From assembly GCA_023374045.1 (NCBI GenBank), contig CM041778.1, positions 287,285,533 to 287,349,532 of the forward strand: a stretch of DNA of 64,000 nt. The letters run 5' to 3'. A model generated the notes under the pieces. That model ran no database searches. It was given only the letters and a program-made list of their open reading frames with translations, and was not told the DNA's origin. Position 1 is the first letter of the stretch. Each line of letters opens with the position of its first letter. This stretch comes from Limonium bicolor (Eukaryota; Streptophyta; Magnoliopsida; Caryophyllales; Plumbaginaceae). The position numbers were made by a program, and so were the translations under genes. Positions 6,996 to 59,400 of the stretch are shown here, piece by piece.

Positions 6996-7021
6996 ATGTA
7001 TGTATGTATGTATGTATGTAT
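6996..7021. repeat. (ATGT)n microsatellite
   Basis: Six ATGT repeats near the 3' end of the C LTR. Confidence 0.95.
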
Positions 7022-7622
7022 TGGAAAATGAATTGTATGTATTCGACCAAATGGTCGGCGTACCCTCGCTAGTACGCGGGGTATGCGGTTATCATATTCA
7101 GCGTAAGCTGACCCCCTAGGGGGAACGTTTTTAGTATGCAGGCACCCGAAGCGGATGTGGTCAAGGTGAAAGACCGGAGGCTACACTTGGATAGGTAGAA
7201 GAAAAATGTAGAAGTGTACGAAGTGGCACACCCCTTGTACTTAGAAAGTAAGTAGTTGTGAGGAATGGGTAGTGTTAGACTCTTAATGAGTATGCATGGA
7301 ATTGAAGAGGTATCGTATTTGTATTTGGAACTTAGTAAACTCGGTATGTGTAGTGTATTATCTTGTATTGAATTATGGAGTATCGTATTGAATGGAGTAT
7401 TGTAGTACTCAATAAGTAATGGGAGTATGTATTGTATTTGTGTAGTACTCGGATATTCCGGTCCATCAGACTGATGCTGTATGTAGTAGTAGCCTTGTTA
7501 GTCATGTGGGTGGCTAACGGCATTGTATCACCCGCCGTTGAGTAAGTATGTATCCGCTGCGTGAGTACGAATGTATAAGGAGATTGGACGGTAATGACGG
7601 TATTAGCGGTAGGGGTGTTACA

Positions 7623-10600
7623 TCCACTCATCTCATACCAACTCTCTCATAATGTTTAAGATATTCTCTTAGTCTTATGGAGATTACATTATACCATTTA
7701 GCCACCCAATGGGTCTTACGCATGCCTAGAAGTAATCTAGGTTATATTCATGTTCGAGATCCATGCTCTAGAGACCGACAATGTCGTATCTCGTACCTAA
7801 GTGTTGTACTTAGGTTATCATATACTTAATATTAATACTGAAGGTATTATATCAAGTAACCATCGTGTCATCACATCAACGCATATGTATGTTTATATAA
7901 GTCGATCTATAGTCGACATAGTGTTAGTCCAGTAGGACACTCGCGCATAATTAAATAACGCATTAACACACATCATCATATGCACATATCCACACACATT
8001 TTAAACCTTAATTTAAATATAACCTATAGTTATATATACTTTAAATTTCCGAACAGCACTTATATTCTGTTCTAAATTGTTTTTCCACCCATCAACTTCT
8101 TATAATTACAATTTAACCCAATTTATAACATATAGTTTTATAATATCATCAAAACTATATATTATACACTTATCTTTTTAAAACACCTTATATTATTCTA
8201 AAAATCACCAAACTATACCAAAAGGTTATAAATATCATTCCTAACCCATAAACTTTCAATTAATTACATTTCCACCCCATTTACTTTTCCAAATTGTAAC
8301 AATGACATAATACCTATATATTATACATATATAGCTTATTTTAGTTCCAAATTCAACCCAATAAAATCCTAAAAATTCCTAACAGCCCATGGGTGTTTAA
8401 AATACCATTGTACACCCTTAAGTTTCGGTATTCACCATACATACCCCAATATTATAAAAATGATACAATAAAATACTTATCTTATTATATAACCTTAAAT
8501 AAATTATTTAACTTATCTAATTTGGTCAATACCTACCCAATGGTCAAAGTTGACCCCCTTAATACTTCCTTGACCATTACTTTCTTTATTTTCGGTTTTA
8601 ACCCCTAAGTTGTCAAAATTTACCAATTAACCTCCAAAACTTAATAAAATCTTATAAACTTTATTTTAAATCCTTTTAACCTCTAATTTTCGGCTTAATT
8701 ATTATTTAGCCCCCAAATTCGATTTAATTATACTCTAACCCCTGATTCAATTTGGTAATATATAAATACCACCTAAAACCTATTTTAAACTAAGTATACA
8801 TAAATAAAATGGCCTAAAGTACATGGCCTTATTACAAACATTTGCTCATAAAATAAATTACACATAAATGTCCCAAAAATACATATAAGTACACGACCTC
8901 ACCATGTATTCTTCATTAATTACTAAACTTTCACATAAAGTCGTAATTTTGACATTTATGTTACTTAATTACTTAGATAAATTTACTAAGTCATTTCCTT
9001 AATTATTTTAAGGTCAAACATGACCATATTAACATGTTCACTCACGGCAATTTGATATACACAAGTTTAAACTTGTATTAATGTATCAAGTTAAGGTTCA
9101 AGTGATTTAAACCTTGATTTAGCAAGGCTAAGACCTTGTTTGGTCTCGCCACCTTAAGGAGAATTTCTCCACAGCTTGATTTACTTGTCTTCATGTAGAA
9201 AACAAGACATGATTAAACTCCAAGCATGAGCTAACCATGGGAAGTAATTTATGTCATGAAAATCATGAATTTTTACCTTAAATCTTCAAGTTTGTTGGAG
9301 TGGGATCTCGGCCCTATTTTTCCAGAAAGAAAGAGTATCAAAACATTCTTAAAAAAAGGTACCAAACAATGGGTAACTAGCTTGGAAGATGGCTAAGATT
9401 TACCTTGTTTAAGATGCGAAAAATGGTGTTTTTGGCTTAGATCTAGCTACTCCTTGTAGATCTTGGTATACCAACTGAATCCACATCGAAAGGAGAAGAA
9501 AATAAGGCTAGGGAACCAAGGTTTACAACTGAAATTTACAAAGACGAAGAGATATGTGCTTAAAGCATATTTTTACCTTAAATGGTCAAGACTTGAACTT
9601 TTCTCCTTCTACCTTGTTACAGCCGAAATTTCCTCTTTTTTTAACTTCTAAAACACACTACATACAAGTATAGAAATGGTTGGACTCTAGATCAATGGAA
9701 AGAGGAAAGAAAGATGAAGAAAATGGACATTTTTATGCCTTAGGAGCTTACCAAGAGCAAGAGCTCTCACCAATGGAGTTTGCTGCTTACCTACGGTCAT
9801 GGAGGAGCCAAATGAGAGAGTTTATAAGGAAGTCTCATGGCTGGAAGGGGCAAATGGAGAAGGTAAGTCAATTTTGTCTTTAAAGTCAATTTTTGCTTAT
9901 TTTATGTTTTTGAAATGCTTTATGACTCACCATGGCTGATTGATGTCGATTATTGGAGGGGATTCAATCAGCTATGCAGCTGACAATGAAGGGGAAAATT
10001 GGGTGGTGATTGATAACTAATTAATGACTTAAGAGAACATTATTATCACTTAAATAATGAAACATTGGTGAGTCACTCTTCCATTGCTATGTAAGGCTTG
10101 GAATCAGCCGTATAACAAGGGGGAAGGCAGCTCACAAATCGGCATAGCCACATGGTAAAGGTAGACAAGCTTTATTGTTTTTTTAATGTTAAAGTATACT
10201 TTTTGTATTTTATGTAAAGTTAAAGGTGTATTATTGTTGGAAGCTTATCTTTGCTGTCTAGTGCTGTTATACAGCTCCTTTGCCGCCTCCCCATCTGGTA
10301 ATTTCATGGTCAATGGTCAACATTGACTAATTTAGTCAATGGAGACTTCATTTTACATTATATTATTATTATATTAATATTTTAATGTAAAAATTGTGAA
10401 AATTGTAAATCTCTGGATTTAGAGTTATTAATGCGATATTAATGAGTATTTATATTCATTAGAGTATTTATAAGTGTTTCATTGGGTTATATAGACCCAA
10501 AACACATTCCCAAGACACTCCCGGGACTTTCGGGACCTTTTTGTGCTTTAAGCGTTTCTCCCGGGCATTTTGTGTTTTCTTGTAAATCTAACTTGATAAT

Positions 10601-10975
10601 TCTCTTTAGAATGTTAATTAATGGTGATAGGAACTCTAAGAATGATTTATTTAGAATTTCGTGCCACTTCGGCATTCTCGGGCCTTTTCTAGGGTTTATG
10701 GGGCCCACAAAGGTTCCTCCAAGCACTTTTCGTTTAATTTAAAATTTACTCCGAGAATTTGTTTTTAAATGATAATTAATGACTATCGGGTCATATTATG
10801 ATCATTAGTTGACTTGTATGACTTGGTTCACTCAAGGTCTGGCTTAACGCTCGTTTTTGACCTTAAGGAGTTTAGGTGCGTTTTTAACGCCTAAGTGTTT
10901 CTGTGCTTTCTTATGGTTTCTTGATCCCACAAATAAACCTTTAATTTCCATTATTTAATGATTAGGGGTATTTCA
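7623..10975 (-). repeat. 3' LTR of B (partial, with an internal deletion)
   Basis: Positions 7623-7997 pair with 16487-16863 in the 5' LTR (about five mismatches by eye), and 7998-10975 pair with 32462-35449. Relative to the 5' LTR, 1,316 bp are missing at 7997/7998, with a 4-bp ACAT repeat at the break. The first about 904 bp (counterpart of 15583-16486) would lie beyond C, outside the window. The open frame at 9680-9883 recurs at 34144-34347 only because the LTRs are copies. Confidence 0.88.
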
Positions 10976-10995
10976 GTCTACCCTCCTTAAAAAGA
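10976..10995 (-). other. 3' polypurine tract of B
   Basis: On the minus strand, TTTTTAAGGAGGGTAGAC immediately precedes the LTR start TGAAATACCCC. This sets B's orientation. Confidence 0.88.
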
Positions 10996-11430
10996 CTTCG
11001 TCCCGAAGTCACTTTACTTAAATAGGTGTATTAATAACTACCCATATAACCCATAATGTATATCTGTGTGATATATCATTTATACATAACATATTATGCC
11101 TATATATAGCACGTAGCCATCATTTGTGGCATTAGTTCAATCATATATGGATATAGGCGATCCATCAGCGCCATAATTCCTATCAGTTCTACCCTTCTTG
11201 ACAAGCTCCCCGAGGTGTCCACATCATACCATCATTCCATGTTCCATATCTAGTGATTCATTTCGTATCTAGGCGATACCATATGTAATCAATATACAAG
11301 GTAATATAAATATATATATCACAGTTGTCATAAGATGTACTACACATATGGGTGTATACACATCATTCAAACAGGTATCTCATAGGATACATGCATATAA
11401 GTGCACATTACACAAAAACATACCAACAAC

Positions 11431-11594
11431 GTACGCCCCGCGTACCGACCATCACACAAACAAAACCTCGTATGCCCCGCATACCACCAAAACGACAAAC
11501 CAACAACATCGTATGCCCCGCATACCACCAATACAACAAATAAACAAACATCGTACGCCCCGCGTACCAACAAACTATTGTATGCCCCGCATAC
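11431..11594 (-). repeat. Five-copy hairpin repeat in the B 3' untranslated region
   Basis: Five 15-bp palindromic units of the form GTAYGCCCCGCRTAC lie at 11431, 11470, 11511, 11553 and 11580, separated by A/C-rich linkers. Arm changes are compensated (GTACG/CGTAC versus GTATG/CATAC), keeping pairing. The array lies between the internal PPT and the 3' PPT. Open frames across it come from the repeat. Confidence 0.9.
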
Positions 11595-11613
11595 GAAACA
11601 ACAAAACTTAGTG

Positions 11614-11644
11614 CTCTACCCCCCTTAAAAAGGGTTACGCCCCC
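11614..11644 (-). other. Second (internal) polypurine-tract motif of B
   Basis: Minus strand: GGGGGCGTAACCCTTTTTAA then GGGGGGTAGAG, about 0.64 kb upstream of B's 3' PPT. Homologous to the motifs at 2138-2171 (C), 23439-23475 (A) and 62852-62885 (D). Confidence 0.75.
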
Positions 11645-11779
11645 GTACCCCACAAGTATATAACAGCCGCTCCACAAGGAGCGCTGGATACTTGGCTCTC
11701 ATAGAGACGGGTATGACTCTAGCCTCTCCGGGCTCCACAATACATAGAGGGTGAGGCACTCGACTATTTGTGCTCTCTC

Positions 11780-11980
11780 CCGAATTCGTTTTAATTGGCC
11801 CACTCGCTCCGTATTGAAGTGTAGACCCATGAACATAGGGCTTAGTTTGCCCCTTTTATTGTATATTCTCCCTTTTGGATTACTAGCGTACATGCGTGTA
11901 TCTTCTCTCCCTGATTTTCAGTTAAAGGTGTAATATGACATTGGCTATTTGTTAGTACTCAGTGCATTTTGCACTAGTCT
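11780..11980 (-). other. Non-coding block shared by B and D
   Basis: Includes GGGCAAACTAAGCCCTATGT and CGGAGCGAGTGGGCC (11784-11856), and the region beginning ATGACATTGGCTAT (plus strand, 11935). Both match D at 63110-63180 and 63425-63475 in the same order. A small stem (GTGCATTTTGCAC) recurs in D as GTGCTCTTTGCAC. No coding potential seen. Confidence 0.7.
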
Positions 11981-12142
11981 CTGTAATACTGAGACGTACT
12001 AGCCTTCATGTCCATGTAGATAAAGATTGTCATCTTTGTCTCCTGGTGGTTTTGTTCCGGAGTAACACACTGTTGTAGTTTTGTGATACTCACTTCGTGT
12101 TGATATCCATTACATCCTCCCATATTCCCACTAGATTACTAA

Positions 12143-12196
12143 CTGCACAAGTGCAATACCAAAACACTCAGTCCTACAGAGTGCAGAGGCGTAAAC
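12143..12196 (-). other. 54-bp ultraconserved internal block (copy in B)
   Basis: Ungapped match to C 1260-1313 (2 mismatches) and A 24154-24207 (3 mismatches), although the B LTR belongs to a different sub-family from those of A and C. Lies 0.5 kb upstream, in sense direction, of the internal PPT. Confidence 0.85.
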
Positions 12197-12576
12197 CCTC
12201 AGTAGTTAATATCTAATGAGACAACAAGAGGAACCAATGATCATGTGAGTTATCATAACGTTTGTTCCTTGCTTAAGGTATCTGCTAGTAAATTAGCTTT
12301 GTCTTTCATCATTGTGAAATCACGCGTTTGTGTTCATATTATTTGGTAGATTCCTCTAGATTTCAAGAACTTGCTTGATCCTTATGAGGGTTCTACACAT
12401 TATCCGTATAATGGGTTTTTGTCCTGTTTCTATCATCAGCGTTAATGTCTTTGAAAAGTTTCCTTTGTCTTCACTTTGTATTACCTGGTATTCTATGTTG
12501 GAAGTTCTTGGTTTCTCTAGCCCATTGGTCTAAACGTGGCTCTTCTCGTCCATCTTCGAGGTAATCTACATCACTG

Positions 12577-12792
12577 TCCGTAGCACGGAGTTGACTACTT
12601 CTCGTGTTCCTTACATTTCTTGTCTACTTGCATGGGGTACCATACTGATACGTTACCACTTACCTGACTAACCTATAAATAAGTCTGTCAGGCCCACATT
12701 CTCCTATCGGAGTGCGGTCGACCCACGTCTCGTTTAGTAAACTGGTAGTGTCTGTCATATGGCTATTGTGAAGTATTCTATTGTCAATCTCC
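12577..12792 (-). other. Conserved internal block with a splice-donor consensus (copy in B)
   Basis: Alignable over about 215 bp with A 25562-25776. Shared landmarks (plus strand) are GGTACCATACTGATAC, TATCGGAGTGCGGTCG and AAGTATTCTATTGTCAA. Read in sense it contains CAG|GTAAGTGG (plus-strand complement at about 12656-12667); A has CGG|GTAAGTAG there. Stops in all frames; function unknown. Confidence 0.7.
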
Positions 12793-13568
12793 CTTTGATG
12801 GATGTCCTTGTTGTAGTTGATGTTAATTATTTCACACTGTCGGTCATCTTATTGTAGGTGCTAATGTCCTAGTGGCATAGATGGCAAAGTGGTTGAATAC
12901 AATATTTTTGTTCCATAGACTCATGTCCTTTCTGTAATATACTGTATGTGGCACTCCTTTCTATAGGTAGTACTTAGTTGTCAATCAGTTAAATGTTAAA
13001 GATTGATTCACCTTTACGGCTGCAATCAATTCATATAATATTCGTGCAGAGTTTAGCAACATCGGTTCTCATATCTCGATCTTTTTGAGTACTATACATA
13101 TTTTTTCCCTCGTGGTTTAATTATTATCACATCCCTTTTGCAGTTAATATTTGTTTCCCTCATCCGCTTGATTGGATGTATGCAGATTGCATAATAGCTT
13201 GAGCAACATGGCTCTCCACTTCCCAACCATCCTCTTTGACGGTGGTACATCTACAAAGGGTATTCTATTTCACACAAGGGTATACTTGTCCATAAGGACT
13301 AAACATTCTTCATTATTAGTGATCATCATTAAATACTGGGATACACTATTGGTATTTGGCTAAAAAGCCATGTCTGGGAATTCTCGAATAGTTAAACTGA
13401 CATAGTTTACAGTGGCTTTATAATTCCTCCAGTTGTAGTGGTTGGACTAATAGGTCTTCCCAAGATTCACAGATTTCTAATCTTAGAGGTTTGTATGGAA
13501 AACTGGTAAAAAATATATTTTTTTTGGTATTTACTAAGAGATTAAGTTTTTTTGTGTGGTAGCTGCAG

Positions 13569-13644
13569 CACTTGCGGAGGCAAGTGCGCAAGGCAGATGG
13601 AAATTTCAGTGGGTTGGTTGTTATAGCGCTTGCAGTAGCAAGTG
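13569..13644 (-). other. Duplicated CACTTGC hairpin of B
   Basis: Two 18-bp stem-loop sequences, CACTTGCGGAGGCAAGTG (13569-13586) and CGCTTGCAGTAGCAAGTG (13627-13644), about 40 bp apart. The same pair occurs in E (38410 and 38468), and a single copy in A (26233-26250). A retained RNA structure such as a packaging or dimer signal is possible but only inferred. Confidence 0.75.
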
Positions 13645-14079
13645 CACCATGCAAGATGAAATATTGGTTAGCAATTATTGGTCTCGTTGACTCTCTCATC
13701 ATTGAGTATGGTTCACATGATAGTGTGAGCATTAAAATTCCATTCATATAAATACGATCCATCAAGGTTTTAAGCTTACTGGTACTGAGTACATACAACT
13801 AATCCCAAAGTCTTACACAAACGGCGAGTGGTCACTGACACACTCCCTCATACTTATAGCATATTCCTGTTTAACATCCAAGGCCAAGTACATAACAAAA
13901 TAAGTGAAAGTGTTCCACTAGCGGTATCTCGGAGTTCAGGGTACTCATGCCCTAGCGACTCCTTGCCCTTTCTAGGCTCCAGCATCAGTAGATGTCTGGC
14001 CCTCCTGTCCGCCTCGTGGTACTCCAGATGCTCCAACTGAGGTGTTCTGAGTAGTCCTTGGTGGCCTATAGTTACGGCT

Positions 14080-15347
14080 CTATAGGTTCATCCAACACTC
14101 GAACTCCCGGTGGCCCTCTTTCTTGTAGTACCGGCACTCTACTTTGCGGCCACTGCAGTCGACCCCAGGATGGTCCTTCCCGCAACGCTTACAATAGTAG
14201 TGGCGCTGGGGCTGTCCGGTGCCTGATGATGGTTTTTAGTTTAAGTTAATATCTGATGGTACAAAGGTTAAGGTTACAATTGAATTTAAGAGGTAGGTGT
14301 TTTCACCTTTAGGAGGTGCAGATCTTAGAGGCTGAGCATCTATAGCTGGGCCGGTCAACCTAAGGACGGGCTCTTTCCCCCTTGCTCCCTGGTGACCATG
14401 TTGCCCTTTCTTCTGAAAGAATTTCCTGTTTATGGTTTCGTGTTAGCTTTCATTAAAGGTGTTTAATATAGTAAACAATTTAGAGTGGGATAAGTCCTTA
14501 CTTTCCCTTCTTCTTGCCATCACCTGGAGATGCTCCTCCACCCTCAGACTCTCCCTCAGGATTGTTTTTCCTTTTTGTCCCAAAAGTCTCTTCCCGAGTC
14601 TGGAGCAGTAGCTCCGTCCTCGAGGCAGCGTCATAGCACTCCTGAAATCTCATGGGTAAGTCCTCACAAGTTTAATTAGTAGTTTAGTAAGTAAAGAATT
14701 AATGGAACTCATGCTAATACCTGGATAGTAGTGTAGAGGGTAGCACCCATTGCCATCTGGATGCGAAACGGTAATCCTCCCCGGAACTTCTCGACCTTCA
14801 TGGTCTCTGAGTAGTCGACTCCGGGGATGAAGTCCAGCAGACTGATGAATCGCGTGTAGTACTCATCCACGGTCAGACCTCCCTGGGAAAGTGTCTCGAA
14901 CTCTCGACGCTTCTTCTGTTTGAGGTGTACTGGGTAGTACTTCCCCCTCAGTAGTTCAACAAAGGTAGCCCATGCAAAGTCGGGCGTAGCCAGGTGATGG
15001 TCCTTGACCAACCTCCACCAAGTATTGGTTGCATCCTTCAGATGGAAAGTAGCAATGACGACTCTCTTGTCGGCAAGTACTTGTAAAGCTTCGTAGGCCT
15101 TCTCGTGCTCTACTATAAATCGCTCTAAGGCTACGGGGTCTGGTTCCCCTGAATAAGTAGGTGGTCGGGTTTCGGTAACTGACTTCAGCCAGTTCGTCTC
15201 CCTGGGCTGTGGCGGGTGGGCTGGTGCTCCTCCAATCGGAGTTCCAAGCTGTGCAAGAATAGCAGCAATCGTCTCTACAACTCCTGGATTCGCGGGGTCA
15301 CCGCCTTCACCTCTACCGGCACCACAACCTCTAGTTCCTCCTGACAT
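14080..15347 (-). CDS. gag: Gag polyprotein of element B, four exons with three predicted introns
   Basis: Gag forms the retrotransposon particle in the cytoplasm and binds its RNA. Exon 1 (15347-14721, 209 codons) starts with an ATG 220 bp after the primer site and has a retrotransposon-gag-type capsid region: PTYSGEPDP near residue 63, NTWWRLVKD, and EYYTRF near residue 166. Read without splicing it ends four codons into GTATTAG. Removing 14720-14642, 14501-14426 and 14306-14223 gives one uninterrupted frame (exon 2 14641-14502, exon 3 14425-14307, exon 4 14222-14080; 342 codons plus stop). Exon 4 holds a zinc knuckle, CKRCGKDHPGVDC, and a second one whose second Cys is Tyr (CRYYKKEGHREFEC). 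No pol follows. Exon 1 and the zinc knuckle are secure; the joins are inferred from GT-AG ends, phase and the copy in G. Confidence 0.82.
14223..14306 (-). other. Predicted gag intron 3 of B (84 nt)
   Basis: Donor AAAG|GTGAAAAC, acceptor CATCATCAG|GC. Phase 1, within the Gly codon after a Pro-Lys. G has a 79-nt intron at the same place and phase (56388-56466). It joins the basic linker to the zinc-knuckle exon. Confidence 0.75.
14426..14501 (-). other. Predicted gag intron 2 of B (76 nt), absent from G
   Basis: Donor AAA|GTAAGGAC, acceptor ATAAACAG|G, with CTAAC about 20 nt before the acceptor. Phase 2. G reads straight through the equivalent Lys/Gln-rich region, so this intron was gained in B or lost in G. 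Confidence 0.65.
14642..14720 (-). other. Predicted gag intron 1 of B (79 nt)
   Basis: Donor CAG|GTATTAG, acceptor ATTTCAG|G, and a CTAAT branch-point-like site about 35 nt before the acceptor. Phase 0. It contains an in-frame stop, so splicing is needed to extend Gag. G has an intron of 87 nt at the same codon junction (CAG|GAG, Gln-Glu, followed by Cys-Tyr). Confidence 0.75.
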
Positions 15348-15566: not shown

Positions 15567-15578
15567 GCTCTGATACCA
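15567..15578 (-). other. Primer binding site of B (initiator tRNA-Met)
   Basis: TGGTATCAGAGC on the minus strand, 4 nt after the end of the 5' LTR (GGTGTTACA). Complementary to the 3' end of plant initiator tRNA-Met including CCA; it primes minus-strand DNA synthesis. Confidence 0.95.
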
Positions 15579-17717
15579 CTTTTGTAACACCCCTCTCAAT
15601 AAACACGTAATAATCACTCACGTAGCATAATTAAAAGACGTCTTACAACAGAAGAATAAACAACATAAACTCTCACACGGGTGTTACCTGCCATTACTCG
15701 CCCATGCAAGTAACGAAGCATAAACTAAATCCAACAACGATAATAAACAACACTACCAAACCGCTATGACAACGAGATAAATCCTATACATCATACTAAG
15801 CCCAGAAACCATAACCGTCGACAAGTGAGCATCTACCCTGATCCCGTACTTCGGCTTCAACGATGAACAGCAACCTGCAACAAGCCATAAAGGCTCAGCG
15901 ATAAACGCTGAGTATGCGGGCCTGGACCCTATTGGTCACTTGTCATATTAACCATCTTGATATTAGATTGATTTCATGCTTTACCATTTTACAGTTATAA
16001 TCAAAACTGTAACAACCATACATAAACATATAATCATCCATCCAATCCAACAGTCATTAAGTATCACAAACAACAGTCGCATAAACGAACGTATCGAATA
16101 ATAACAATACAGTGTATAGTCGCCTTAGCGAACGGTTTCCATATTTAATATTGTTTGGCCTTCAAGACCCCATCCAACCAAACCATATTTATTTAATTAC
16201 CAGTTGGGCGTCATGTTGGGACAACCCGGTTAACCCTACCAATGGACAGTAGTCCTCCCGTACACACAAAGGTGCTCATTTCGCCAGAGGTCCGGAGGCC
16301 CCTGACTATTCACTTTGCCTCGTAAGGCGTCCATATAAAGGCCGTAGCCATGTACTAATAATAGGTACCACCTGTCCCACGATCCAATTAGGGCTCGTTG
16401 GGTAATTTCCTAGAGCGGGACTCGATCCGGTACCACTCAGTGATCACAAATGCGCAACAAAGTAGTTCGTAAACTACCGGGATTCCTCCACTCATCTCAT
16501 ACCAACTCTCTCATAATGTTTAAGATATTCTCTTAGTCTTATGGAGATTACATTATACCATTTAGCCGCCCAATGGGTCTTACGCATGCCTAGAAGTAAT
16601 CTAGGTTATATTCATGTTCGAGATCCATGCTCTAGAGACCGACAATGTCGTATCTCGTACCTAAGTGTTTTACTTAGGTTATCATATACTTAATATTAAT
16701 ACTGAAGGTATTATATCAAGTAACCATCGTGTCATCACATCAACGCATATGTATGTTTATATAAGTCGATCTATAGTCGACGTAGTGTTAGTCCAGTAGG
16801 ATGCTCGCGCATAATTAAATAACGCATTAACACACATCATCATATGCACATATCCACACACATAACATACAAGTTATCAAATAGTTTCCGGGCCCTTTCT
16901 TAGGTCAACCCGGATCAAACCCTTCTTCACATACCGTACACCTTAGACCAAGGATGTGTAGTGTAGTCCACTAAGCTTGTCGAGCGTGCACGTCTGAAAG
17001 GTGATCTATAAATACGAGGAACGCTAGGTGTCAATCCACATGACAAATTGACTTGGTATTTCCGAACAAAGTCAGTGACCCCAGTTCTACTTCCCCGGAT
17101 TCCCACTGTTATTAGTTAAGTTACCGTTATACTTTAAACTCCTTACTCAATGTTTGTATAAATACTTTGGTTTAACAGTGGAGTCGGTTTCATTAAAACG
17201 TCGTGGTTGTTTATAAGCGTCACACTTTCACATAAGTTCATTGGTTCTCGTACATTTAATTCAACTGTCTCATCGCATGTATAGGCACGCATTGTAACCT
17301 ACAGTTGCACGCATAATATATTTTATAACCTATTGTTGCATGTATAATGCATTGTTTATCGTATATTACTATTATCTCACCATTATCATAATTCATTGTA
17401 TTATTTAATTGTGACAGCCCAGCCTAATCAGCCCACATGTGTGATATTGCCCGCTTTGGCACGCAGGCCGCACGGATTTGTTCCTGGGGTTTCCTAGCCC
17501 CAAAACGTGTCACACAAGGAAGAGGTATCCATGCACCTATAAGGCACACTTTGTTCTCCTGTCCAACCGATGTGGGAGGAACACCACGCCGGGTGTTTAC
17601 ACTCTACCCCACTTAGGGAGCCTAGTGCCCTCACGGGCTCACTGGCACACCGACCTGGGTCTGGCTCTGAGACCATCTGTGACAGCCCAGCCTAATCAGC
17701 CCACATGTGTGATATTG

Positions 17718-22153: not shown

Positions 22154-22171
22154 ATCTACCACCCTTAAAAG
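22154..22171 (-). other. 3' polypurine tract of A
   Basis: CTTTTAAGGGTGGTAGAT on the minus strand, directly before the 3' LTR start. One purine of the family consensus AAGGGGGGTAGA is a T here. Confidence 0.85.
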
Positions 22172-22261
22172 AACTCCGTCCTCGAAGTTCACATTTCCCA
22201 TGCATCATTAGACTAGAATACGGGAATTACTTGCAAAATAAAACATCCATAACTAACATAC

Positions 22262-31530: not shown

Positions 31531-34500
31531 TATTGTCCGCTTTGGCACGCAGGCCGCACGGATTTATTCCTGGGTTTCCTAGCCCCAAAACGCGTCACAC
31601 AAGGAAGAGGTATCCATGCACCTATAAGGCACACTTCGTTCTCCTCTCCAACCGATGTGGGAGGAACACCACGCCGGGTGTTTACATTAATCCATTAACC
31701 TCGCAATATTTACATTTGAATTAAAAAACCTATAACTTATAGTTTATAAACTATTTCCATATAATAACCTTCACCACTATTTTATATGGTTTCCAACCAT
31801 AATATATATCCATCCTTATATACATAATTCTTTTATATGTATATATTTACCAATATAGGTAAGTTTCATGAGTGTATAAAACTCTTATACCGTATGTCAC
31901 ATTTTATCATCTTATGTGAAATGATTATTTCCATTAGTTGTGTTATATTGTCACAACCTATATTAAGATCATTATCTTAATAACATATAACATTTTATGT
32001 TGTATAATTTCAACTCCTAAGGTTTATTCAATATTTACCTTAGTTTATAAATCTCATTTATTTATAGTTTGTCACATTATTTAATGTGAATATCCTTACT
32101 TATATTAATTCCATTTAAACCACATGAATACCATATAATTGTTATAACATTTATAACATTGTAGACCATAGTCTAAAATTCATTTTCCAACCTTTATAAA
32201 TTCGGTACAGCACTATATTTCATTTTAATTTCATTTTGACCACATAACATTATGTAATGTTATACCATATACTAATATCATATAATATGATATCTTTATC
32301 TTTTATAATTTATAACATATAGTTTTTATACAAAACTATTGTTAATTACCGAAAAGGTATATCCATTTTAAACCAATCTTATTAAGTTATCATATCTTTA
32401 TGTTTATTACAAAATCACCTCATAATTTATACCATGTTATATATACCATATAATATAACATTTTAAACCTTAATTTAAATATAACCTATAGTTATATATA
32501 CTTTAAATTTCCGAACAACACTTATATTCTGTTCTAAATTGTTTTTCCACCCATCAACTTCTTATAATTACACTTTAACCTAATTTATAACATATAGTTT
32601 TATAATATCATAACAACTATATATTATACACTTATCTTTTTAAAACACCTTATATTATTCTAAAAATCACCAAACTATTCCAAAAGTTTTTAAATATCAT
32701 TCCTAACCCATAAACTTTCGGTTAATTACATTTCCACCCCATTTACTTTTCCAAATTGTAACAATGACATAATAACTATATATTATACATATATAGCTTA
32801 TTTTAATTCCAAATTCAACCCAATAAAATCCTAAAAACTCCTAACAGCCCATGGGTGTTTAAAATACCATTGTACACCATTAAGTTTCGGTATTCACCAT
32901 ACATACCCCATATATTATAAAAATGTTACAATTAAATACTTATCTTATTATATAACCTTAAATAAATTATTTAACTTATCTAATTTGGTCAAAACCTACC
33001 CAATGGTCAAAGTTGACCTCCTTAATACTTCCTTGACCATTACTTTCTTTATTTTTGGTTTTAACCCCAAAGTTGTTAAAATTTACCAATTAACCCCCAA
33101 AACATAATAAAATCTTATAAACTTTATTTTAAATCCTTTTAACCTCTAATTTTTGGCTTAATTATTATTTAGCCCCTAAATTCGATTTAATTATACTCTA
33201 ACCCCTTATTCAATTTGGTAATATATAAATACCACCTAAAACCTATTTTAAACTAAGTATACATAAATAAAATGGCCTAAAGTACATGGCCTTATTACAA
33301 ACATTTGCTCATAAAATAAATTATACATAAATGTCCCAAAAATACATATAAGTACGCGGCCTCGCCATGTATTCTTCATTAATTACCAAACTTCCACATA
33401 AAGTCTTAATTTTGACATTTATGTTACTTAATTACTTAGATAAATTTACTAAGTCATTTCCTTTATTATTTTAAGGTCAAACATGACCATATTAACATGT
33501 TCACTCACAGCAATTTGATATACACAAGTTTAAACTTGTATTAATGTATCAAGTTAAGGTTTAAGTGATTTATACCTTGATTTAGCAAGGTTAAGACCTT
33601 GTTTGGTCTCGCCACCTTAAGGAGAATTTCTCCACAGCTTGATTTACTTGTCTTCATGTAGAAAACAAGACATGATTAAACTCCAAGCATGAGCTAACCA
33701 TGGGAAGTAATTTAAGTCATGAAAATCATGAATTTTTACCTTAAATCTTCAAGTTTGTTGGAGTGGGATCTCGGCCCTATTTTTCCAGAAATAAAGAGTA
33801 TCGAAACACTCTTAAAAACAAGGTACAAAACCGTGGGTAACTAGCTTGGAAGATGGCTAAGATTTACCTTGTTTAAGATGCAAAAAATGGTGTTTTTGGC
33901 TTGGATCTAGCTACTCCTTGTATATCTTGGTATACCAACTGAATCCACATGAAAAGGAGAAGAAAATAAGGCTAGGGAACCAAGGTTTACAACCGAAATT
34001 TACAAGGATGTAGAGATATGTGCTTAAAGCATATTTTTACCCTAAATGGTCAAGACTTGAACTTTTCTCCTTCTACCTTGTTACAGCCGAAATTTCCTCT
34101 TTTTTTAACTTCCAAAACACACTACATAAAAGTATAGAAATGGTTGGACTCTAGATCAATGGAAAAAGGAAAGAACGATGAAGAAAATGGACATTTTTAT
34201 GCCTTAGGAGCTTACCTAGAGCAAGAGCTCTCACCAATGGAGTTTGCTGCTTACCTACGATCATGGAGGAGCGAAATGAGAGAGTTTGGAAGGAAGTCTC
34301 ACGGCTGGAAGGGGCAAATGGAGAAGGTAAGTCAATTTTGTCTTTAAAGTCAATTTTTGCTTATTTTATGTTTTTGAAATGCTATTAATGACTCACCACG
34401 GCTGATTGATGTCGATTATTGGAGGGGATTCAATCAGATAGGCATCCGGCAATGATGGGGAAAATTGGGTGGTGATTGATAACTAATTAATGACTTAAGA

Positions 34501-35449
34501 GAACATTATTATCACTTAAATAATGTAACATTGGTGAGTCACTCTTCCATTTCTTTGTAAGGCTTGGAATCAGCCGTATAACAAGGGGTAAGGCAGCTCA
34601 CAAATCGGCACAGCCACATGGTAAAGGTAGACAAGCTTTATTGTTTTTTTAATGTTAAAGTATACTTTTTGTATTTTATGTAAAGTTAAAGGTGTATTAT
34701 TGTAGGAAGCTTATCTTGGCTGTCTAGTGCTGTTATACAGCTCCTTTGCCACCTCCCCATCTGGTAATTTCGTGGTCAATGGTCAACATTGACCAATTTA
34801 GTCAATGGAGACTTAATTTTACATTATATTATTATTATATTAATATTTTAATGTTAAAATTGTGAAAATTGTAAATCTCTGGATTTAGAGTTATCAATGC
34901 GATATTAATAAGTATTTATATTTATTAGAGTATTTATAAGTGTTTCATTGGGTTATATAGACCCAAAACACATTCCCAAGACACTCCCGGGACTTTCGGG
35001 ACCTTTTTGTGCTTTAAGCGTTTCTCCCGGACATTTTGTGTTTTCTTGTAAATTTAACTTGAGAATTCTCTTTAGAATGTTAATTAATGGTGATAGGAAC
35101 TCTAAGAATGATTTATTTAGAGTTTCGTGCCACTTCGGCATTCCCAGGCCTTTTCTAGGGTTTATGGGGCCCACAAGGGTTCCTGCAGGCGCTTTTCGTT
35201 TAATATAAAATTTACTCCGAGCATTTGTTTTTAAATGATAACTAATGACTATCGGGTCATATTATGATCATTAGTTGACTTGTATGACTTGGTTAACTCA
35301 AGGTCCGGCTTAACGCTTGTTTTTGACCTTAAGGAGTTTAGGTGTGTTTTTAACGCCTAAGTGTTTCTGTGCTTTCTTATGGTTTCTTGATCCCACAAAT
35401 AAACCTTTAATTTCCATTATTTAATTATTTAATGATTAGGGGTATTTCA

Positions 35450-51045: not shown

Positions 51046-51619
51046 TGAAATACCCCAAACTTAGATATGGTGTTTAAGTGATAAACTAAGGTATAAGAAG
51101 ACTAAAGAATGCCTTAGAAACATTAAGAAACCATATTAACCAAAGAAAACATAAGGAAACACCAAAAGAGCAGTTTTAGCAAAAACGTGCTCTAAGCTTG
51201 GAGAGACTTGGGTGAGCACCCAAATATCATTCTAAGACCTTAGTAATATCCTAATGGTCATTTTAAACCAATTACCAAAGAAAACCAAGCTTGAAAACAA
51301 GTTAAAACACAAAATGTGCTTTAAGGAGTCTTAAAGCACATTTTTGAAAAATTGTCTTGTAAATAGGTTTTGAGTGGCTAAATGTCCATCATTACTCTTT
51401 AATTAACATGTGTACTAATTAGTATCACATTAGGAAGTCTAAATCAATGGGAAATCAAAAATTTCACAATTATGTGCCTTGTTTAGTGAATAGTAACCAA
51501 ATAATGCTAGTTTAAGACATTAGTCAAAGTAAGTCAATTAAATGGTCAACAAAGACCACAATACACCTTGTTTGACTAAGGGGCCGGTTTTTAATGTGAC
51601 TCACCACACTTATCTAGCT

Positions 51620-51760
51620 AAGTAATGAGTAAAGCAAAAGTAAGTAAAAACATTATTCACCTTTTAACATAATATCTTACCTTTAGTAGTCCTCTCTCCT
51701 CCTTTCTTCATTCTTCATCTTCCCCATCGATTTTCTTTGCTATCTTTCTTCTCTCTCACG
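51620..51760 (+). promoter_or_regulatory. Presumed LTR core promoter and leader start (G)
   Basis: AAAGCAAAAGTAAGTAAAAA followed about 40 bp later by a CT-rich tract. The A-rich motif matches C (GCAAAAGTAATAAAGTAAAA) and A (minus strand AAAGCAAAAGTTACT), though LTR sequence elsewhere differs. Confidence 0.45.
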
Positions 51761-51974
51761 TAAGAAGCAACCTCCATGCTAGCTCCATCTTCTTTTTCCC
51801 ACATCTTGCTCATTTAAGCTCCAAAATCAAAACCAAGTACATATATCTCTTAGTTAGCTCAAGCTCTTCCTTTCTATCTTTTCAAAACTTCAAGAGCCTC
51901 ATTTTGGAGCCAAGGCAAATCGCCATTAGAGGAGGAAATCCAAGTTTGGAGAGTTCATTGGCTTCTCTATTCTC

Positions 51975-52348
51975 TTAAGGTAAAGAATATGTAAGAAAAT
52001 CTAGGTTTCCATCATTTTCTCTCCATGTCCGAAAATTATCACTCATGGGGTTCCATTTTTATGCCTTGTTCTAGCTTGTTTTCTACTCTCCAAAGGATAA
52101 AGGAGGTCCTTCTTGCTTCATATCCAAGCTTGTCTTGAGAAACCAAGGTAAAACAATCAATTTAATACCTTAAAACACATTTTAACCTAGGTTTTATTCC
52201 TTAAGGTTAGTGTGTTGTTTAGTAATCATTGGAGTCATTGAATGTTGGTTAGAACATTGGCAAGGAGAACTTGATTTGGTGACCGAGATTGAGCAAGGAA
52301 AAACCTAAGGAAGAAAGTTTGTGAAGCTTGAAATAGAACAAGGTAAAT
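51975..52348 (+). other. Array of three AAG|GTAA splice-donor-like sites in the G LTR
   Basis: GT of AAGGTAA at 51980, 52148 and 52343 (168 and 195 bp apart), nearly the same spacing as in C (174 and 195 bp). Confidence 0.55.
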
Positions 52349-53363
52349 GTCTTACCTTAAGGTGTTTAATGCATTAAGGGATGGGATTTAGGTATATGAT
52401 GAGTGTAGCTTAAGGTTTACATTAAAAAAAGGGTTATATATAACCTAGGTGAAACAATTACTATGTTTGAGAACTTGTGACTAAGGAGCCAATGAGAAAA
52501 GAGATAGTTAAACAATGTTGGGATGAATTACAAGAAGCATTTTATTTCAATGGGAGCCTTGTTGTCTGTATTCGCAGGTTAAAGGCAATTATATGTGAAA
52601 ATTCAGTGGTTAAGATTATTGTCATTTAAGGGCCTAAGTGCCAAGCATTTTAAGTTTATACACTATGTGATGATGTGGTGTAGTTTTGGTGTAAATTGTG
52701 TGTTAAGGTGTTGTGATGAGAATTTGAGTGATCTTGGTTGTTTGATGGTGAAAAACCAAGTGTTTGGGTGTAACAATATACTAGAGAACCCATGGCAAAA
52801 TTTAGTGGAGAACCTAAGTGTTTAAGATGTTCTAAGGAGATTTCATGACTAAGGAAGTCCTAGGAAGTTTTAGAGGTTGTCTTGATGAAAAAGGGTGAGT
52901 TTAAGGTGTATAATGAGTTAGAATGACCTAGACATGATCATGGAGGATTTAGGAACCAAATGAATGTACTAGTGTATTTAGGACTTAGGCAAACATTGGT
53001 AAACTAGTAGAAAAGAAATAATGTGTTGGATGATGGTGTCATAAATTTGTGTAGGAACTTTAAGTAGTTGCATAAAGGAATTTTAGGTGGAGAAAGATGC
53101 TTGGGAGATGATGTTATAGTGGTGAGGAAGCATTTTGGCATAGTGGTTATAATAGGTGTGAACCACCACTTAGAAACCTAAAGAGAAACATTACAAGTGT
53201 TGACATTATTGCAAGGAAATAAATAATGACTAAGATGGATATTGATGAGTGATTTAAGGAGTTTAGTGGAGGGCTTAAGGTGTGTTTTAAATGCCCAAAC
53301 AAGGTTAGACCATGCTAGGAAATGAGATAAGTGTTTAAGGATTTAGAAGATGGGTATTTTGGC

Positions 53364-53700
53364 CTGTCCGAACTTCCGTCCGAATTTGGAAGCTCGGACA
53401 TGCCCTGTTGCAATTTAACCTTCTAAGTCTCGACCAGTGTCCGGACTTCAGTCCGACCTTAGAAGTTCGGACACTTGAAATTTTTCCTTTGGAATTTCCC
53501 TCGACCTATGTCCAAACTTAGGGAAGCTCGGACACATGTTCGGACACTTGAAATTTTTCTTTTGAATTTTCCTCGACCTATGTCCGAACTTAGGGAAGCT
53601 CGGACACATGTTCGGACACACGTCTGATTGCACCCTTTTTGAGTCTCGACCTATGTCCGAACTTGGGAAGCTCGGACACAAGTTCGGACGCGGTGCTGTT
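53364..53700. repeat. GTCCGAACTT repeat cluster in the G LTR
   Basis: Five diverged units of about 60-85 bp with GTCCGAACTT ... AAGCTCGGACA and ATGTTCGGACAC, which pair to form stems. Same position in the LTR (about 2.3-2.65 kb) as the A and C arrays. The minus-strand open frames with repeated CPSFPKFGHRSR are products of the repeat. Confidence 0.85.
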
Positions 53701-55184
53701 TTGGCCAAAAACTTTGTTTAAGGTTATGAAATGGTGGGGATGATTAGGTATTGATGTTATAAGGCTATTAAGGACATGTTTGGTGGGTGTAATGGTCATT
53801 AAGTGGGTGAGTAAGTGTAATAGATAATGAGGAAATGATGCACTTAGGAGTTAAGTTAAAAACCATAAGGCTTAGTGAAAAACAATGAGTAAAAGTTGAT
53901 GTCTAGGGAGGCTAAGTAATTGTATTGAGTTGAATTGAATAATAACCTAAAACTGAATGAATGTTTTAGGATTGGTGAATTGGGACTTGGAAGGAGAGAA
54001 ACCAAACAATCGTCGACGGTGAACGGTACAATCTTTCTTGTGACCTGCTTGCTAACGAGGTGTCCCTCGGCTTGTGTGCTATCTGTTTAATTGCTATGAC
54101 TAAGGCAAGATAAAGCATGCAACCGGTTATATTGTTCTCGTTGTGTATGTGTTTTCTTTACGCTAACCCATGAGACTTGAGATTGTTACTAACCAAGTTT
54201 AGTACTTACTGAGTCAAGGATAAGAGTTAAGTATTGGTGACTATTGGTTAATACCCGTTAGGGTTTAACTAACACATGGTGGGTAAGATTTTTACTAACT
54301 GGAACTTGAGTGAGGAAACCCGGGACTGACTCCGGTCATGCATGCTAAGGAAAGGGGAACGGTATCTGAATCAGATCCGCCCTCCGCTTAAGGACTTGTC
54401 TTCGGACTTGTTGCCTAGGGCCGGTTGCCGGCTCAGCTACACTGGACTCCCGTCCAAGGTAGGAGGCATTAAGATGGTGCGGTAGGATCACCTAAATCCT
54501 AGGTTTGAGATTAAGCTACAACCATTTCCATTTTAGGAACGGTTTGTATACTGAGATTAAGATAAGGTTAAGACTGAGGTAAGATAAGGAACTGAGGTTA
54601 AGGAAATCAGGACTAAGGAGGGGGTTACTAACCCGCTTGATAAGGGGACGCTTGTGTCGTTCATTGTGTGTGAACTATGTATGTTCATCTGTGGATTGTT
54701 GTTTATAGCACTTCATATCATGATTGTGTTTCTAATCAATTTCCATGCTATCGACAATTAGTCGTCGTAGCCCCGTTAGCTTGGGGGCCATGAGAGGGAG
54801 TACCAGCATTCGTGCTGACCCCCTTTGGGGGCTGTTTTTACACTTGCAGGTAAGAGACCCATGAAGTCACTCCACGAGAGTAGGAGCGGTTAGACTTAGG
54901 GTGGGTTGTTTATTTTGGGTACGGGATGCGCTTGTGCTCCCGTCTATTTATATTGAAACTGATGTAAGTTTGTGACTATGACTTAGATACTTTACTCGGT
55001 TGGTTGGTGGTGTTTTGGTCGGTTATGTATTTTGGATAAGTGTTGTAAATTGATAAGGCCGGTATATTCTAACGATCAGACCGTGGCAAGGTCCCGGTGT
55101 TTGTTATTTCCGCTGCGACGAATTCGATTAAGTGTTAAGTTTTACGACAACCACGATTGGCTTTGGACGGGGTGTTACAAAAAG

Positions 55185-55196: not shown

Positions 55197-56047
55197 GTAG
55201 TTACACTCTGATCAAGAAATACCGGACATGAGTAACCACCAAGTTAGAATATAAGTTAAGAAATAAGTGATAGGTTAAGGGTGTGAGCTGTTAGTGTGAG
55301 TAGAGTCAGATGACCACTAATAAGTGTGGATCGTCTTTACCGTCTACGGACGTTATAAATTCGTTAATCGAAACAGTGGTGGTTACGAATCTAATGTGAG
55401 TTGTGATTGTTCAGATGTCAGGAAGGAGACGCCGAGGGCGTCACAGAGGCGACAAGACTGAGATACCGGAGGGGCAGACGATCGCAGAGATCGTAGCTGC
55501 CGCATTAGGGCACATGGGCTATCAGCCTGGTGTGGGTGCACCACCTCCACCGCCACAACCCCGGGAACCAAATTGGGTGAAGAGCCTTGCAGACCTTTGA
55601 CCCGCACGCTTTAAGGGGGAGACCGATCCCGCCAAGCTTGAGGCGTATATCTCCGAGCTGGAGACCGCCTTCGAGACCCTTGACGTCCCTGCTGGGATCA
55701 AGGTACGTCTAGCTGCGTTCTACCTAAAGGGGGCAGCAGGCGATTGGTGGAAGCTGGTGAGGGCCGAGCATGTGGCCAACCCAGATTTTGGCTGGGACCA
55801 GTACACAGCACTGCTTCGAGCAAAGTACTATCCCGCCCATGTCCAGACGAAGAAGCGACTACAGTTGGATGCGCTTAAGTAGACCGACAAGATGACGGTG
55901 GACGAGTATTACTCAGAGTTAACCGCCTTGCTCCGTCTTCTGCCAGGTCTTGGATATTCAGACCAGATACTGGTGGACCGCTTCTATGGCGGGCTTAGCC
56001 ATCGACTCCGCTACGGCATGGGGCCAACAAGTTACACTACCTTGCAG

Positions 56048-56134
56048 GTAATAAGAATGGTTGAGATTTGAGTAAGTAAATGAGTAAGCTTTGGATTATG
56101 AAAAGATAAGAGTGACTAATATTGTGGAAAGCAG
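56048..56134 (+). other. Predicted gag intron 1 of G (87 nt)
   Basis: Donor GCAG|GTAATAAG, acceptor AAAGCAG|GAG, with GACTAAT (branch-point-like) about 20 nt before the acceptor. Phase 0, same codon junction as B intron 1. Confidence 0.75.
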
Positions 56135-56387
56135 GAGTGCTATCATGCCGCTGCTAAGGTTGAGATAACCGTCCAGCTGAGGGACGAGGAGAATGCTAAG
56201 AGGAAGAGTGCCGGTAAGAGCACGGAGAACCAAGGGCAAGGTGGGTACAAGAAACAGAAGTACTAGCCTCAGGCCTAGAAAAGTCAGAACCAAAAAGGGA
56301 AGGAGGAAAAGGAGAAGGCTCCAGAGGAGCCACTGAAGTTGACGTACGCTTACGCAGCTACACCCCTGCGCTCTAGGGCGCCAAAGG

Positions 56388-56466
56388 GTAAGGGATTGGT
56401 ATTGAGTGAGTTAAGAGACAATTAGTAACCGTTTGAGATATGAGTACTGATATTGTGAATGAGCAG
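56388..56466 (+). other. Predicted gag intron 2 of G (79 nt)
   Basis: Donor AAGG|GTAAGGG, acceptor AATGAGCAG|GA, with TACTGAT about 20 nt before the acceptor. Phase 1 within a Gly codon, same place and phase as B intron 3. Confidence 0.75.
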
Positions 56467-59400
56467 GATCTGAGACTGAAAAGGGAGCCGGGGGTGGCTA
56501 CCAGTGACACTACATCTGTAGGTGTAACACCCCACTCGCTAACCTCTTAATAATCACTCTCGTATAATCACTCACGTAGCATAATTAGAGACGTCTTACA
56601 ACGGAAGTTAAACTACATCAATCCTCACTTGGGTGTCACATGCCATTACTCGCCCATGCGAGTAAAGAAGCATAACCGTAATCTAACAATGAACAACAAC
56701 TAACCGCAGTGATGAACGAGATATTTATTACATTATCCTATATACAAACCAATACCTATGACAAGTGAGCATTTAAAGAGTTCCCAGAATTTCAACGTGC
56801 TAACCGATTTAATGATAAATATGCGATAAATAAAAGTCGAGGCCGTCTACCCATATTCCCGCACTCCGGCTTCACGTCCCGATCCACAACCTGAAATGGG
56901 TTGGCCCCAAAAGGGGCTCAGCAAACTATATGCTGGTATGCTAAAGTGTAATCCTAGACCCTTTAGGTCACTTAGGTCAATTAGCCGTCTGAACATGAGG
57001 TTGATTACATGCTGGTTCATTTTACAGTTTATATAACAGCAGTAAATAACATGCATAAGCATATAATATCCATCAAGTGACAACCCATACATTTCATACA
57101 ATCCACAACATACCAGGTACCACGTGTTATAAAAGATCATACAATGTACTGTAAACATTAATACAAACGCGTAGATACTTCCATCGAGATGTTAGTAATT
57201 TTTCCTTAAAATTATGTTAGCCACCATTAAGTCTTACACTCAATATCCATGGGTGTCGTGTTGGGACAACCCGTAAATAACCTCACTGGACAGTAGTCCT
57301 CCCGTGCACACGAAGTGCTCATTGCCAAGGATCATTCAATCCTGGAACTTCCACTTGCCTAATAAAGGCGTCCATGAATGGCCGAAGCCGTGTGCCAAAG
57401 TCGGCACCCTGGTCCAACAGTCTATCTAGGCCCGTCGGAATATAGAGGGAGTTGGTCCGATACGGACGTTATACTCCGGTGATCACCAATGCGCAACCAA
57501 CTAGTCGAAACTAATTGGATTCCTATACCATTTACCATAACCAACACTCTCCAATATATGATTAATCCTTAATCAACTGCCCTAAGTAAATACTTAGGTC
57601 TTGAAGAAGTCTTTACCATTATTACCTTTGAAGTCTTATGTACTTCCCTAGACATAGTTTAGATTATAGTCATGTTCGAGTATTAAGCTCTAGAGACTGG
57701 GGATCCCGAGTCTCGTTCCTAAGTGTTTTACTTAGGTCAGTTAGGGATAAAGTTCCCGAATATTAGTATTCCAACCGCATAAACAGTCATAGTCACATTG
57801 TCCGAAGACGTCGCGCACAATAATAATCACTTACCAACCTTATAAATAATCCACACAGTCATGCATAGCAAACATATCGTTCTTGTCACATAGTCAACCA
57901 ATACCCGAACCGAGGCTTCCCTCAGAGGTTCAGACCACACAATAAACATACCGTACACCGTCGAACGTTCGCGTGATAATTCCCGCGTAGTCCCTAGCAC
58001 TCACAATGCTCGTCTCTACCAACTTGCACCTCTGGTACATACGTTGTTCTAATATCAGTATATATCTATGTGTAACTTGAAACATTACGATTGCTAATAT
58101 ACGTTATGGTTTACATAACTTTTCCTACGTGCATGTAACGTACTATACAACTATATATACTTATAATATAGTGGTTGTTGTAATCACGTTTGTACTTCTA
58201 ATTGTATAATCCCGTTTGTCACTCGTTATCCATATTATGCCCTTATGTCATGTTATAAATCCGCAAGATATAAATTATAAAGTTCCTCTCATAATAAAGT
58301 TCCAACCATACAATATACTTCCAAAATTTTCCAACTTAATCCATCATTTTATGCAAATGCTTATAATGCATATTTATTCCTTATAACTCCCTTATAATAT
58401 ATCCTCTTATACTTTAACATAATGGTGAATTACACCATCCCAACCTTATTATATATTCTGTCCACATATTAATCATTCCCAAATCAGCCCACACACTTTC
58501 GGTAACTGCAATATTTACCCTTTCATTTGATTTTTATAAAATAAACCATATATTATAACTACTATATTTCCAATCTTATTGCTTTATAGTCTAAGGTTCT
58601 CTAACCTTATTATATACATATATTATGTATGTAATTCTGACACAACTAATACTTTTCGGAAATCTCTATACCATTCCCACATATTTTTGATTATTTACAA
58701 AACTATCCCACATTTCCTACTTGTTATATTACGAATCCTTATTAATTTATAACTTAAGATATTCCAACATTACATAGACATATGTATATATTTGCGAACA
58801 GCCCCTCTCCTTTCTCAGATTTATTTATTCACCCACGATGCCCTCTTAATTACACTATAACCCCCTTAATACCATAAACTTTCATTAATACTTTGGCCCG
58901 CCTTCCTCTTATAAACTTACAATTTAACATCAAAACTTTATATTATACACATTGATTTATTTAATTTCAAAAACCAACCAATATTTTCTCCAATTTCCGA
59001 ACAACCCCAAAGGTCGTTCTAAATCCCATTTCTACCCAAATTTTTGGTTATTTACCAAGTAGCCCATAAGTTTTATAAAATGTTAAATTTTAATACTCAA
59101 ACTATATGTTATACTCCTTAACTAAATAAATTACCAAACCAACTCATAATTTACCCAGATTTACATACGGACCTATAAGTTTTATTTAATTTCCATTCCA
59201 GCCCATAATCTTTCAAAAATCACATTATAGACCCATAAATTTTTAAATTGTTACACATTAGCACTTAACCACATATTATCACCCTTAATTAATTAACTCC
59301 TTAAACCAATCCCAAAAATTCTCTAAGTTCCCAAACAGACCCCTAGGGTCTTAATATTTATCTTCCTACACCTATATTTTTTTTTGGTAATTACATAAAC

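Follow-up and report, generated by a model that had tools for sequence, protein, structure and literature searches.

How an element that multiplies through an RNA copy could carry a gag gene divided by several introns is the question raised by a 64,000-nucleotide (nt) stretch of the Limonium bicolor genome (assembly GCA_023374045.1, contig CM041778.1, positions 287,285,533 to 287,349,532), referred to here in its whole length as the window. Every round of copying through RNA should strip a retroelement of its introns. An earlier note, made from the letters of the window alone, had described a retrotransposon gag gene at 14080-15347 whose reading frame becomes continuous once three introns are removed. 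The analysis confirms that this gag, on the minus strand, is split by three predicted GT-AG segments. The gene is probably the gag of a long terminal repeat (LTR) retrotransposon, here called element A, for which the searches gave no pol. A diverged relative shares the position and phase of two of the three predicted introns, and splicing would be the switch between the message for Gag and the RNA genome.

Structure of the gag gene

The gene opens with exon 1 (14721..15347, minus strand; 627 nt, 209 codons), which was defined by its open reading frame (ORF) and by Pfam matches and which encodes the N-terminus together with the greater part of the capsid domain. It matches Retrotrans_gag with an expectation value (E) of 5.6e-16 over profile positions 2-95 of 97 and Ty3_capsid with 1.7e-9 over positions 11-149 of 198, both above the curated cut-offs; the retrotransposon gag of the earlier note is more specifically a Ty3-type capsid gene. 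Because the Ty3_capsid match stops at profile position 149 of 198, intron 1 precedes the end of the profile. Past the junction CAG/GTATTAG the unspliced frame adds V-L-A and stops at the fourth codon, as had been seen before, and comes to 212 codons.

Downstream on the minus strand follow predicted intron 1 (14642..14720; 79 nt, phase 0, GTATTA...TTTCAG), exon 2 (14502..14641; 140 nt), predicted intron 2 (14426..14501; 76 nt, phase 2, GTAAGG...AAACAG), exon 3 (14307..14425; 119 nt), predicted intron 3 (14223..14306; 84 nt, phase 1, GTGAAA...CATCAG) and exon 4 (14080..14222), which ends in a TAG stop at 14082-14080. Removal of the three segments joins the four exons into 342 codons and TAG, with no stop within the exons; the joined length, the segment lengths of 79, 76 and 84 nt and the phases 0, 2 and 1 all agree with the earlier note. 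Each predicted intron contains stops in all three frames (3, 4 and 1 in intron 1; 2, 4 and 1 in intron 2; 4, 2 and 1 in intron 3), and therefore a single frameshift would be no substitute for splicing. The zinc knuckle with which the gene had been said to end was located in exon 4, where two knuckles were read by eye, CX2CX3HX4C and then CX2YX4HX4C, though both are near-consensus only. Past the TAG stop, the minus strand of 13900-14079 holds four further stops in about 60 codons and no domain. Exons 2-4 alone gave no Pfam match at E 1, a sequence search of the PDB with exon 1 gave no match up to E 10, and an AlphaFold2 model of exon 1, built on a four-row alignment, reached only a mean predicted local distance difference test score of 44.8 and a predicted template-modelling score of 0.31.

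Intron positions in related gag genes

A second gag (gag2), on the plus strand, was found by a tblastn search of the window with the exons of the element A gag. Its exon 1 (55415..56047; in-frame stops at 55598 and 55880) is 46% identical to exon 1 of element A and is followed at the same site by a predicted intron 1 (56048..56134; 87 nt, phase 0, GTAATA...AAGCAG), after which gag2 resumes with ECYHAA, where exon 2 of element A starts with ECYDAA. Exons 2 and 3 of element A align in order to a single gag2 exon (56135..56387; in-frame stops at 56264 and 56276), exon 2 from 56135 and exon 3 up to 56387, and this stretch is uninterrupted at site 2; in 1000 shuffles none was as good for exon 2, and the same was true of exon 3. 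A predicted intron 3 (56388..56466; 79 nt, phase 1, GTAAGG...GAGCAG) again lies at the site of its counterpart. The remnant of exon 4 (56467..56522, tested to 56521) contains the beginning of a zinc knuckle and runs up to ...HYIC, where it is cut by the inserted LTR of a further element, N2, and the exon 4 match taken alone is weak because only 17 residues are left before that LTR. Thus the comparison with a related gag that the earlier note had proposed as a check, carried out here within the window, finds introns 1 and 3 equal in site and phase in the two genes and intron 2 absent from gag2.

The exon 1 DNA of the two genes is 64% identical, with a z of 18.7 relative to shuffled sequence. 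Introns 1 and 3 align hardly better than shuffled sequence, with z of 2.2 and 2.7; intron sites and coding sequence were retained as the introns themselves drifted. Over 206 codons of exon 1 the nonsynonymous divergence (dN) is 0.49 and the synonymous divergence (dS) about 3.7, giving a dN/dS of about 0.13, which is a rough ratio because dS is saturated. The differences at the three codon positions are 0.37, 0.34 and 0.66, and the substitution pattern is typical of purifying selection. The splice-site ends of gag2 are retained despite its stops.

Protein relatives bear on site 1 in particular. Of 426 candidates in a protein search with exon 1, a single one matched, P0005 (231 amino acids, 63% identical). 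It remains homologous up to the final residue of exon 1 and departs from homology there with V-C-N-Q..., as would be expected if the P0005 gene also entered an intron there. An alignment search returned three matches among 7025 candidates: P0005, P0006 and P0007. At 31% identity, P0007 continues across site 1 without a break, and its tail, a modest match, is in register with exon 2 from that exon's first residue on. The site of intron 1 is therefore at the identical residue in element A, in gag2 (in the same phase) and in P0005 (as protein only), and is uninterrupted in the more distant P0007; it falls within the conserved end of the capsid. P0006 aligns only ahead of the junction and is apparently frameshifted, and was set aside as intron evidence. 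Longer, uninterrupted gags numbered 0 of 1008 candidates; since few plant-like proteins occurred in any search, this speaks only weakly for a rarity of intron-less relatives. No relatives were found in the viral_contigs, genome_contigs and plasmids collections.

The five predicted introns of the two genes have several features in common. All have GT...CAG ends followed by an exon that begins with G, all contain stops in every frame, and their A+T content is 63-69%, against 42-49% in the two 52-nt exon flanks (68-69% against 43-49% for the three of element A). Each also has a YTRAY motif 15-34 nt from its 3' end, a motif that is common in A+T-rich DNA and whose counts have no chance control. 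The branch-point-like CTAAT and CTAAC of the earlier note are present in introns 1 and 2 of element A; more specifically, within 15-50 nt of the 3' end, intron 1 has CTAAT at 34 nt, intron 2 has TTAAT at 27 and CTAAC at 17, and intron 3 has TTAAC at 45 and 23. The marks of spliceosomal (U2-type) introns are thus found in the form of GT-AG ends, A+T richness, a branch-like site and a conserved position, except that the position of intron 2 is not conserved.

Element A and its family

The gag gene lies at the standard place in an element that runs along the minus strand. The 5' LTR of element A starts at 35449 and ends at 15583 and is split by nested insertions between approximately 16864 and 32457. 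Its 5' part (32458..35449) starts with TGAAATACCCC and is 96.3% identical to 7996-10963, and its 3' part (15583..16863) ends with GGGGTGTTACA; the stretches 16864-17411 and 31687-32457 may be partly LTR that was deleted from the 3' copy, or insertion sequence. On the 3' side of this LTR is the primer-binding site (PBS) TGGTATCAGAGC (15567..15578, minus strand), which we take to be of the initiator-Met tRNA type, and gag follows the PBS, the leader being 235 nt long. At the other end of the element a polypurine-tract (PPT) region, TTTTTAAGGAGGGTAGAC (10976..10993, minus strand), stands ahead of the 3' LTR (7623..10975, minus strand), which is cut at 7623 by the inserted element N1. The two LTRs diverge by a Kimura two-parameter distance of 0.037 over 2968 sites and of 0.013 over 377.

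The remaining 3.1 kb of internal sequence, from gag to the 3' LTR (10994..14079, minus strand), has no pol domain that could be found, nor any Pfam match at E 0.1 in the three minus frames of 10969-14099, and it shares blocks with other elements of the window (E2, N1 and N2). Element A thus has the capsid domain, LTR pair, PBS and PPT of a Ty3/gypsy-type element, and a pol with reverse transcriptase before integrase was not found; for this reason it was filed as a pol-less derivative and not as a full Ty3/gypsy member.

The window contains at least four further elements that have LTR ends in common with element A and, where visible, PBS or PPT as well. E2 (minus strand) has LTRs at 31530-27085 and 22153-17718 that are 97.4% identical, and a TATTG target duplication; of gag it has only a possible trace (26929-26813, E 0.03). 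G2 (plus strand) has its 5' LTR at 51046..55179, followed by a PBS and, after a leader that is again 235 nt long, by gag2. N1 (plus strand; 3' LTR 3400-7622) is inserted in the 3' LTR of element A, and N2 (minus strand; 3' LTR 62496-56523) in gag2, so that the region of G2 beyond gag is cut off and not visible. Among the internal regions of element A, E2, N1 (last 3.4 kb) and N2 (last 1.5 kb), all six pairs share at least one short block (E 1e-3). Element A and G2 have two common blocks near the 5' end; the first 1.3 kb of G2 shared no block with E2, N1 or N2 at E 1e-3, and with G2 as query E2 was matched at E 4.5e-4. A block of about 95 nt with a nearly invariant core of about 50 nt is common to element A (12126-12220, minus strand), E2 (24138-24231, minus strand) and N1 (1228-1330, plus strand), and most of the remaining internal sequence around it has diverged. 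This block is possibly a cis-acting RNA element; Rfam gave no match at the gathering threshold, including none for the block.

Domain scans covered the plus frames of 1-7622 and 36001-64000 and, gag exons aside, the minus frames of 10969-14099, 22154-27081 and 57001-64000. Element A and E2 gave no pol domain at E 0.1, nor, at E 0.01, did N1 and N2 as far as they are visible. At E 0.01 the plus frames of 36001-64000 yielded only gag2 and a CACTA-type transposase, and neither 57001-64000 on the minus strand nor 1-7622 on the plus strand yielded anything. A lack of pol therefore seems to be characteristic of the family and not an accident of a single copy. That pol is not found in element A, and that gag2 lacks intron 2, had both escaped the earlier reader.

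Splicing as a probable switch and alternative explanations

Because element A has an LTR pair, a PBS and a PPT and still contains all three introns, the way in which LTR elements replicate implies that the RNA template of this copy was unspliced and retained all three; the earlier note's suggestion of an unspliced RNA genome follows from the same reasoning, and the regulated splicing that the note adds is a prediction. The unspliced RNA would then likely be the packaged and reverse-transcribed genome, with reverse transcriptase and integrase supplied by an autonomous partner, and full-length Gag is predicted to come from the spliced RNA alone. If translated, the unspliced RNA would give a Gag truncated at codon 212, which would lack the zinc knuckles and, in all likelihood, the end of the capsid. 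Because the unspliced frame stops after that codon, Gag output would depend on splicing, and the spliced and unspliced RNAs would meet different fates, as has been reported for BARE1.

It seems somewhat more probable than otherwise that a capsid gene of several exons has persisted in this lineage through a long divergence, with splicing as an obligate switch in which unspliced RNA serves as genome, only fully spliced RNA gives Gag, and introns are occasionally lost or gained. Intron 2 may have been lost from gag2 when a partly spliced RNA was reverse-transcribed, or gained in the lineage of element A; both are equally possible. The sharing of intron sites at 46% identity suggests that intron-bearing RNA has likely been the long-term template, in which case the element would have to hold its genome RNA and its Gag message apart. 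The separation of packaging from translation in retrotransposons thereby becomes a testable question, and annotation based on ORFs may overlook such gags or class them as dead.

Several points weigh against a splicing switch. The specific packaging of the unspliced RNA is an assumption. The restored frame was set against 200 dinucleotide shuffles, in which chains of at most three GT-AG removals of 60-110 nt were allowed from codon 200 on: the open length of the proposed structure, 430 nt, was matched by 16 of the 200 (shuffle mean 150 nt), and the real sequence permits a longer chain, of 450 nt, that 12 of them reached. As 16 shuffles do equally well, the restored frame alone is unconvincing, and it was rejected as sufficient proof. 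Among the relatives, the tail of P0007 is matched as well by 24 of 2000 shuffles and exon 4 of gag2 by 43 of 1000; gag2 itself is decayed, with four in-frame stops and a truncated exon 4; and the gags that can be read as DNA are only two, both from one window. The dN/dS ratio is taken from a saturated dS, and since the 3' end of element A is cut by N1 its target-site duplication is not readable.

The shuffles that equal the GT-AG chain are also what speaks for simple decay, in which the gene would be a pseudogene whose insertions or frameshifts are bridged by chance GT-AG segments, and the authors of the work on SCHULTE of sugar beet allow frameshifts and point mutations as a source of the unexpected introns of that element (PMC2669250). 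Site conservation largely refutes this explanation, which is very improbable: sites and phases are equal in gag2 and site 1 recurs in P0005, so that homology, judged from these alignments, decides the matter and raises the introns above chance; high A+T content and CAG/G acceptors occur in all five segments. The lack of stops in the exons of element A points the same way, though weakly, since so young an insertion would have gained few. A different possibility accepts the introns but regards them as passive, with Gag supplied in trans by an autonomous partner, the element's own gag seldom expressed, and splicing before packaging merely inefficient, without any switch. A partner would be needed in any case, as no pol was found in the family, and E2, with its weak gag trace, nevertheless has a nearly identical LTR pair and a target duplication. 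The low dN/dS, the splice-site ends kept in gag2 and the stop-free exons of element A argue instead that Gag was made, and the passive explanation, while it deserves some weight, is unlikely.

The multi-exon structure is typical of host genes, and no domain was found in the remaining internal region of element A, both of which would fit the capture of a host multi-exon gene (a domesticated gag) by a non-coding LTR element. A domesticated gag would lack surrounding LTRs, and here LTRs, PBS and PPT are present. Moreover, two diverged elements have gag where it is normally found, downstream of the PBS and with leaders of equal length, and E2 has a possible trace at the same place, so that a capture would have to be old; we regard it as quite improbable. 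Spread as DNA, by segmental duplication or recombination in which unspliced RNA was never copied, would suit the fact that no target-site duplication can be read for element A or G2. It is hardly credible, however, because the LTRs of these two elements match little beyond their ends and each element has its own PBS, and because the LTR pair of element A adjoins PBS and PPT as reverse transcription predicts. The splicing switch remains the probable explanation.

Other features of the window

E2 is inserted, with its TATTG target duplication, into a short repeated element (TGACAGCCCAGCC...) found at 17412-17717 and 31531-31686, and its LTRs contain clusters of a short repeat, GACCGACCTTGCAAG...AAGGTCGGTC, at 19453-19809 and 28818-29117. 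Further LTR-like ends (GGTGTTACA / TGTAACACC) occur at 36210 and 36527 on the plus strand and at 48372 on the minus strand; TGGTATCAGAGC is found at 36213, after one of these ends, and the sequence of 48256-48387 is similar to the side of element A that bears the PBS. A Transposase_21 domain (37699-38073, plus strand; 6e-45), presumably of the CACTA-type class, is followed downstream by a dense tandem array at 40766-41825. A pair of direct repeats of about 2.06 kb, 91.6% identical (38583-40646 and 45057-47106), possibly represents the LTRs of another element.

Comparison with known systems

TR-GAG and LARD elements are pol-less LTR retrotransposons with gag as their only gene. Element A resembles them in having two LTRs, a PBS, a PPT and gag as the sole gene found, with no pol found; gag introns are not mentioned for TR-GAG / LARD in the portions of the sources available. 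Penelope-like elements are not LTR elements with capsids. They keep spliceosomal introns through retrotransposition, and the antisense template that has been considered for them would not suit the PBS-primed replication of element A (PMC3846280).

Plant LTR retrotransposons are generally without introns, with exceptions that include Ogre and EVADE (PMC12786077). The literature searched, outside which most subscription papers lie, appears to hold no report of several introns within the gag of a plant LTR retrotransposon, and the available text of PMC6875170, PMC12477816, PMC2864245 and PMC2832683 contains no multi-intron gag. The earlier note had given Ogre as the known plant case, which proves too narrow: BARE1, EVADE, CRR and the GAG-RNAs of triticale are further precedents for splicing around gag in the parts of the reports at hand (PMC12786077, PMC3735527, PMC7765848).

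In Ogre (Ty3/gypsy, legumes), according to the available text, removal of an intron joins coding sequence, and splicing affects no more than a subset of the transcripts (PMC6317226). Element A is likewise a plant LTR retrotransposon with an intron whose predicted removal joins coding sequence. The Ogre intron lies between protease and reverse transcriptase, whereas the two to three introns here are internal to gag, and neither a protease nor a reverse transcriptase domain was found.

BARE1 (copia, barley) has a 104-nt U-rich intron near the end of gag and separate RNA pools for translation and packaging, the RNA bound for packaging being uncapped, not polyadenylated and not spliced; the accessible part of the same source covers the splicing of Ogre and CRR alongside (PMC3735527). 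The unspliced RNA of BARE1 contains one ORF and splicing limits the product to Gag, whereas in element A the capsid frame is broken unless the RNA is spliced. Spliced RNA encodes Gag also in EVADE (copia, Arabidopsis), as shGAG, and in the triticale GAG-RNAs, most of which have one intron and whose unspliced forms have longer ORFs (PMC7765848), and in this respect they are like the predicted message of element A. The longer ORF is in the unspliced RNA of EVADE and triticale, and here the reverse holds. Sunflower elements, in the text available, produce truncated Gags via splicing (PMC7730604).

Thus, where the BARE1 and EVADE type has a continuous unspliced frame that splicing shortens, the unspliced frame of element A stops after 212 codons. 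In BARE1, EVADE, CRR and triticale, as far as the accessible portions of the reports extend, splicing shortens a longer frame, drops parts of pol or joins ORFs and does not rebuild a capsid frame, whereas in element A the rebuilding of the capsid frame is what splicing is predicted to accomplish.
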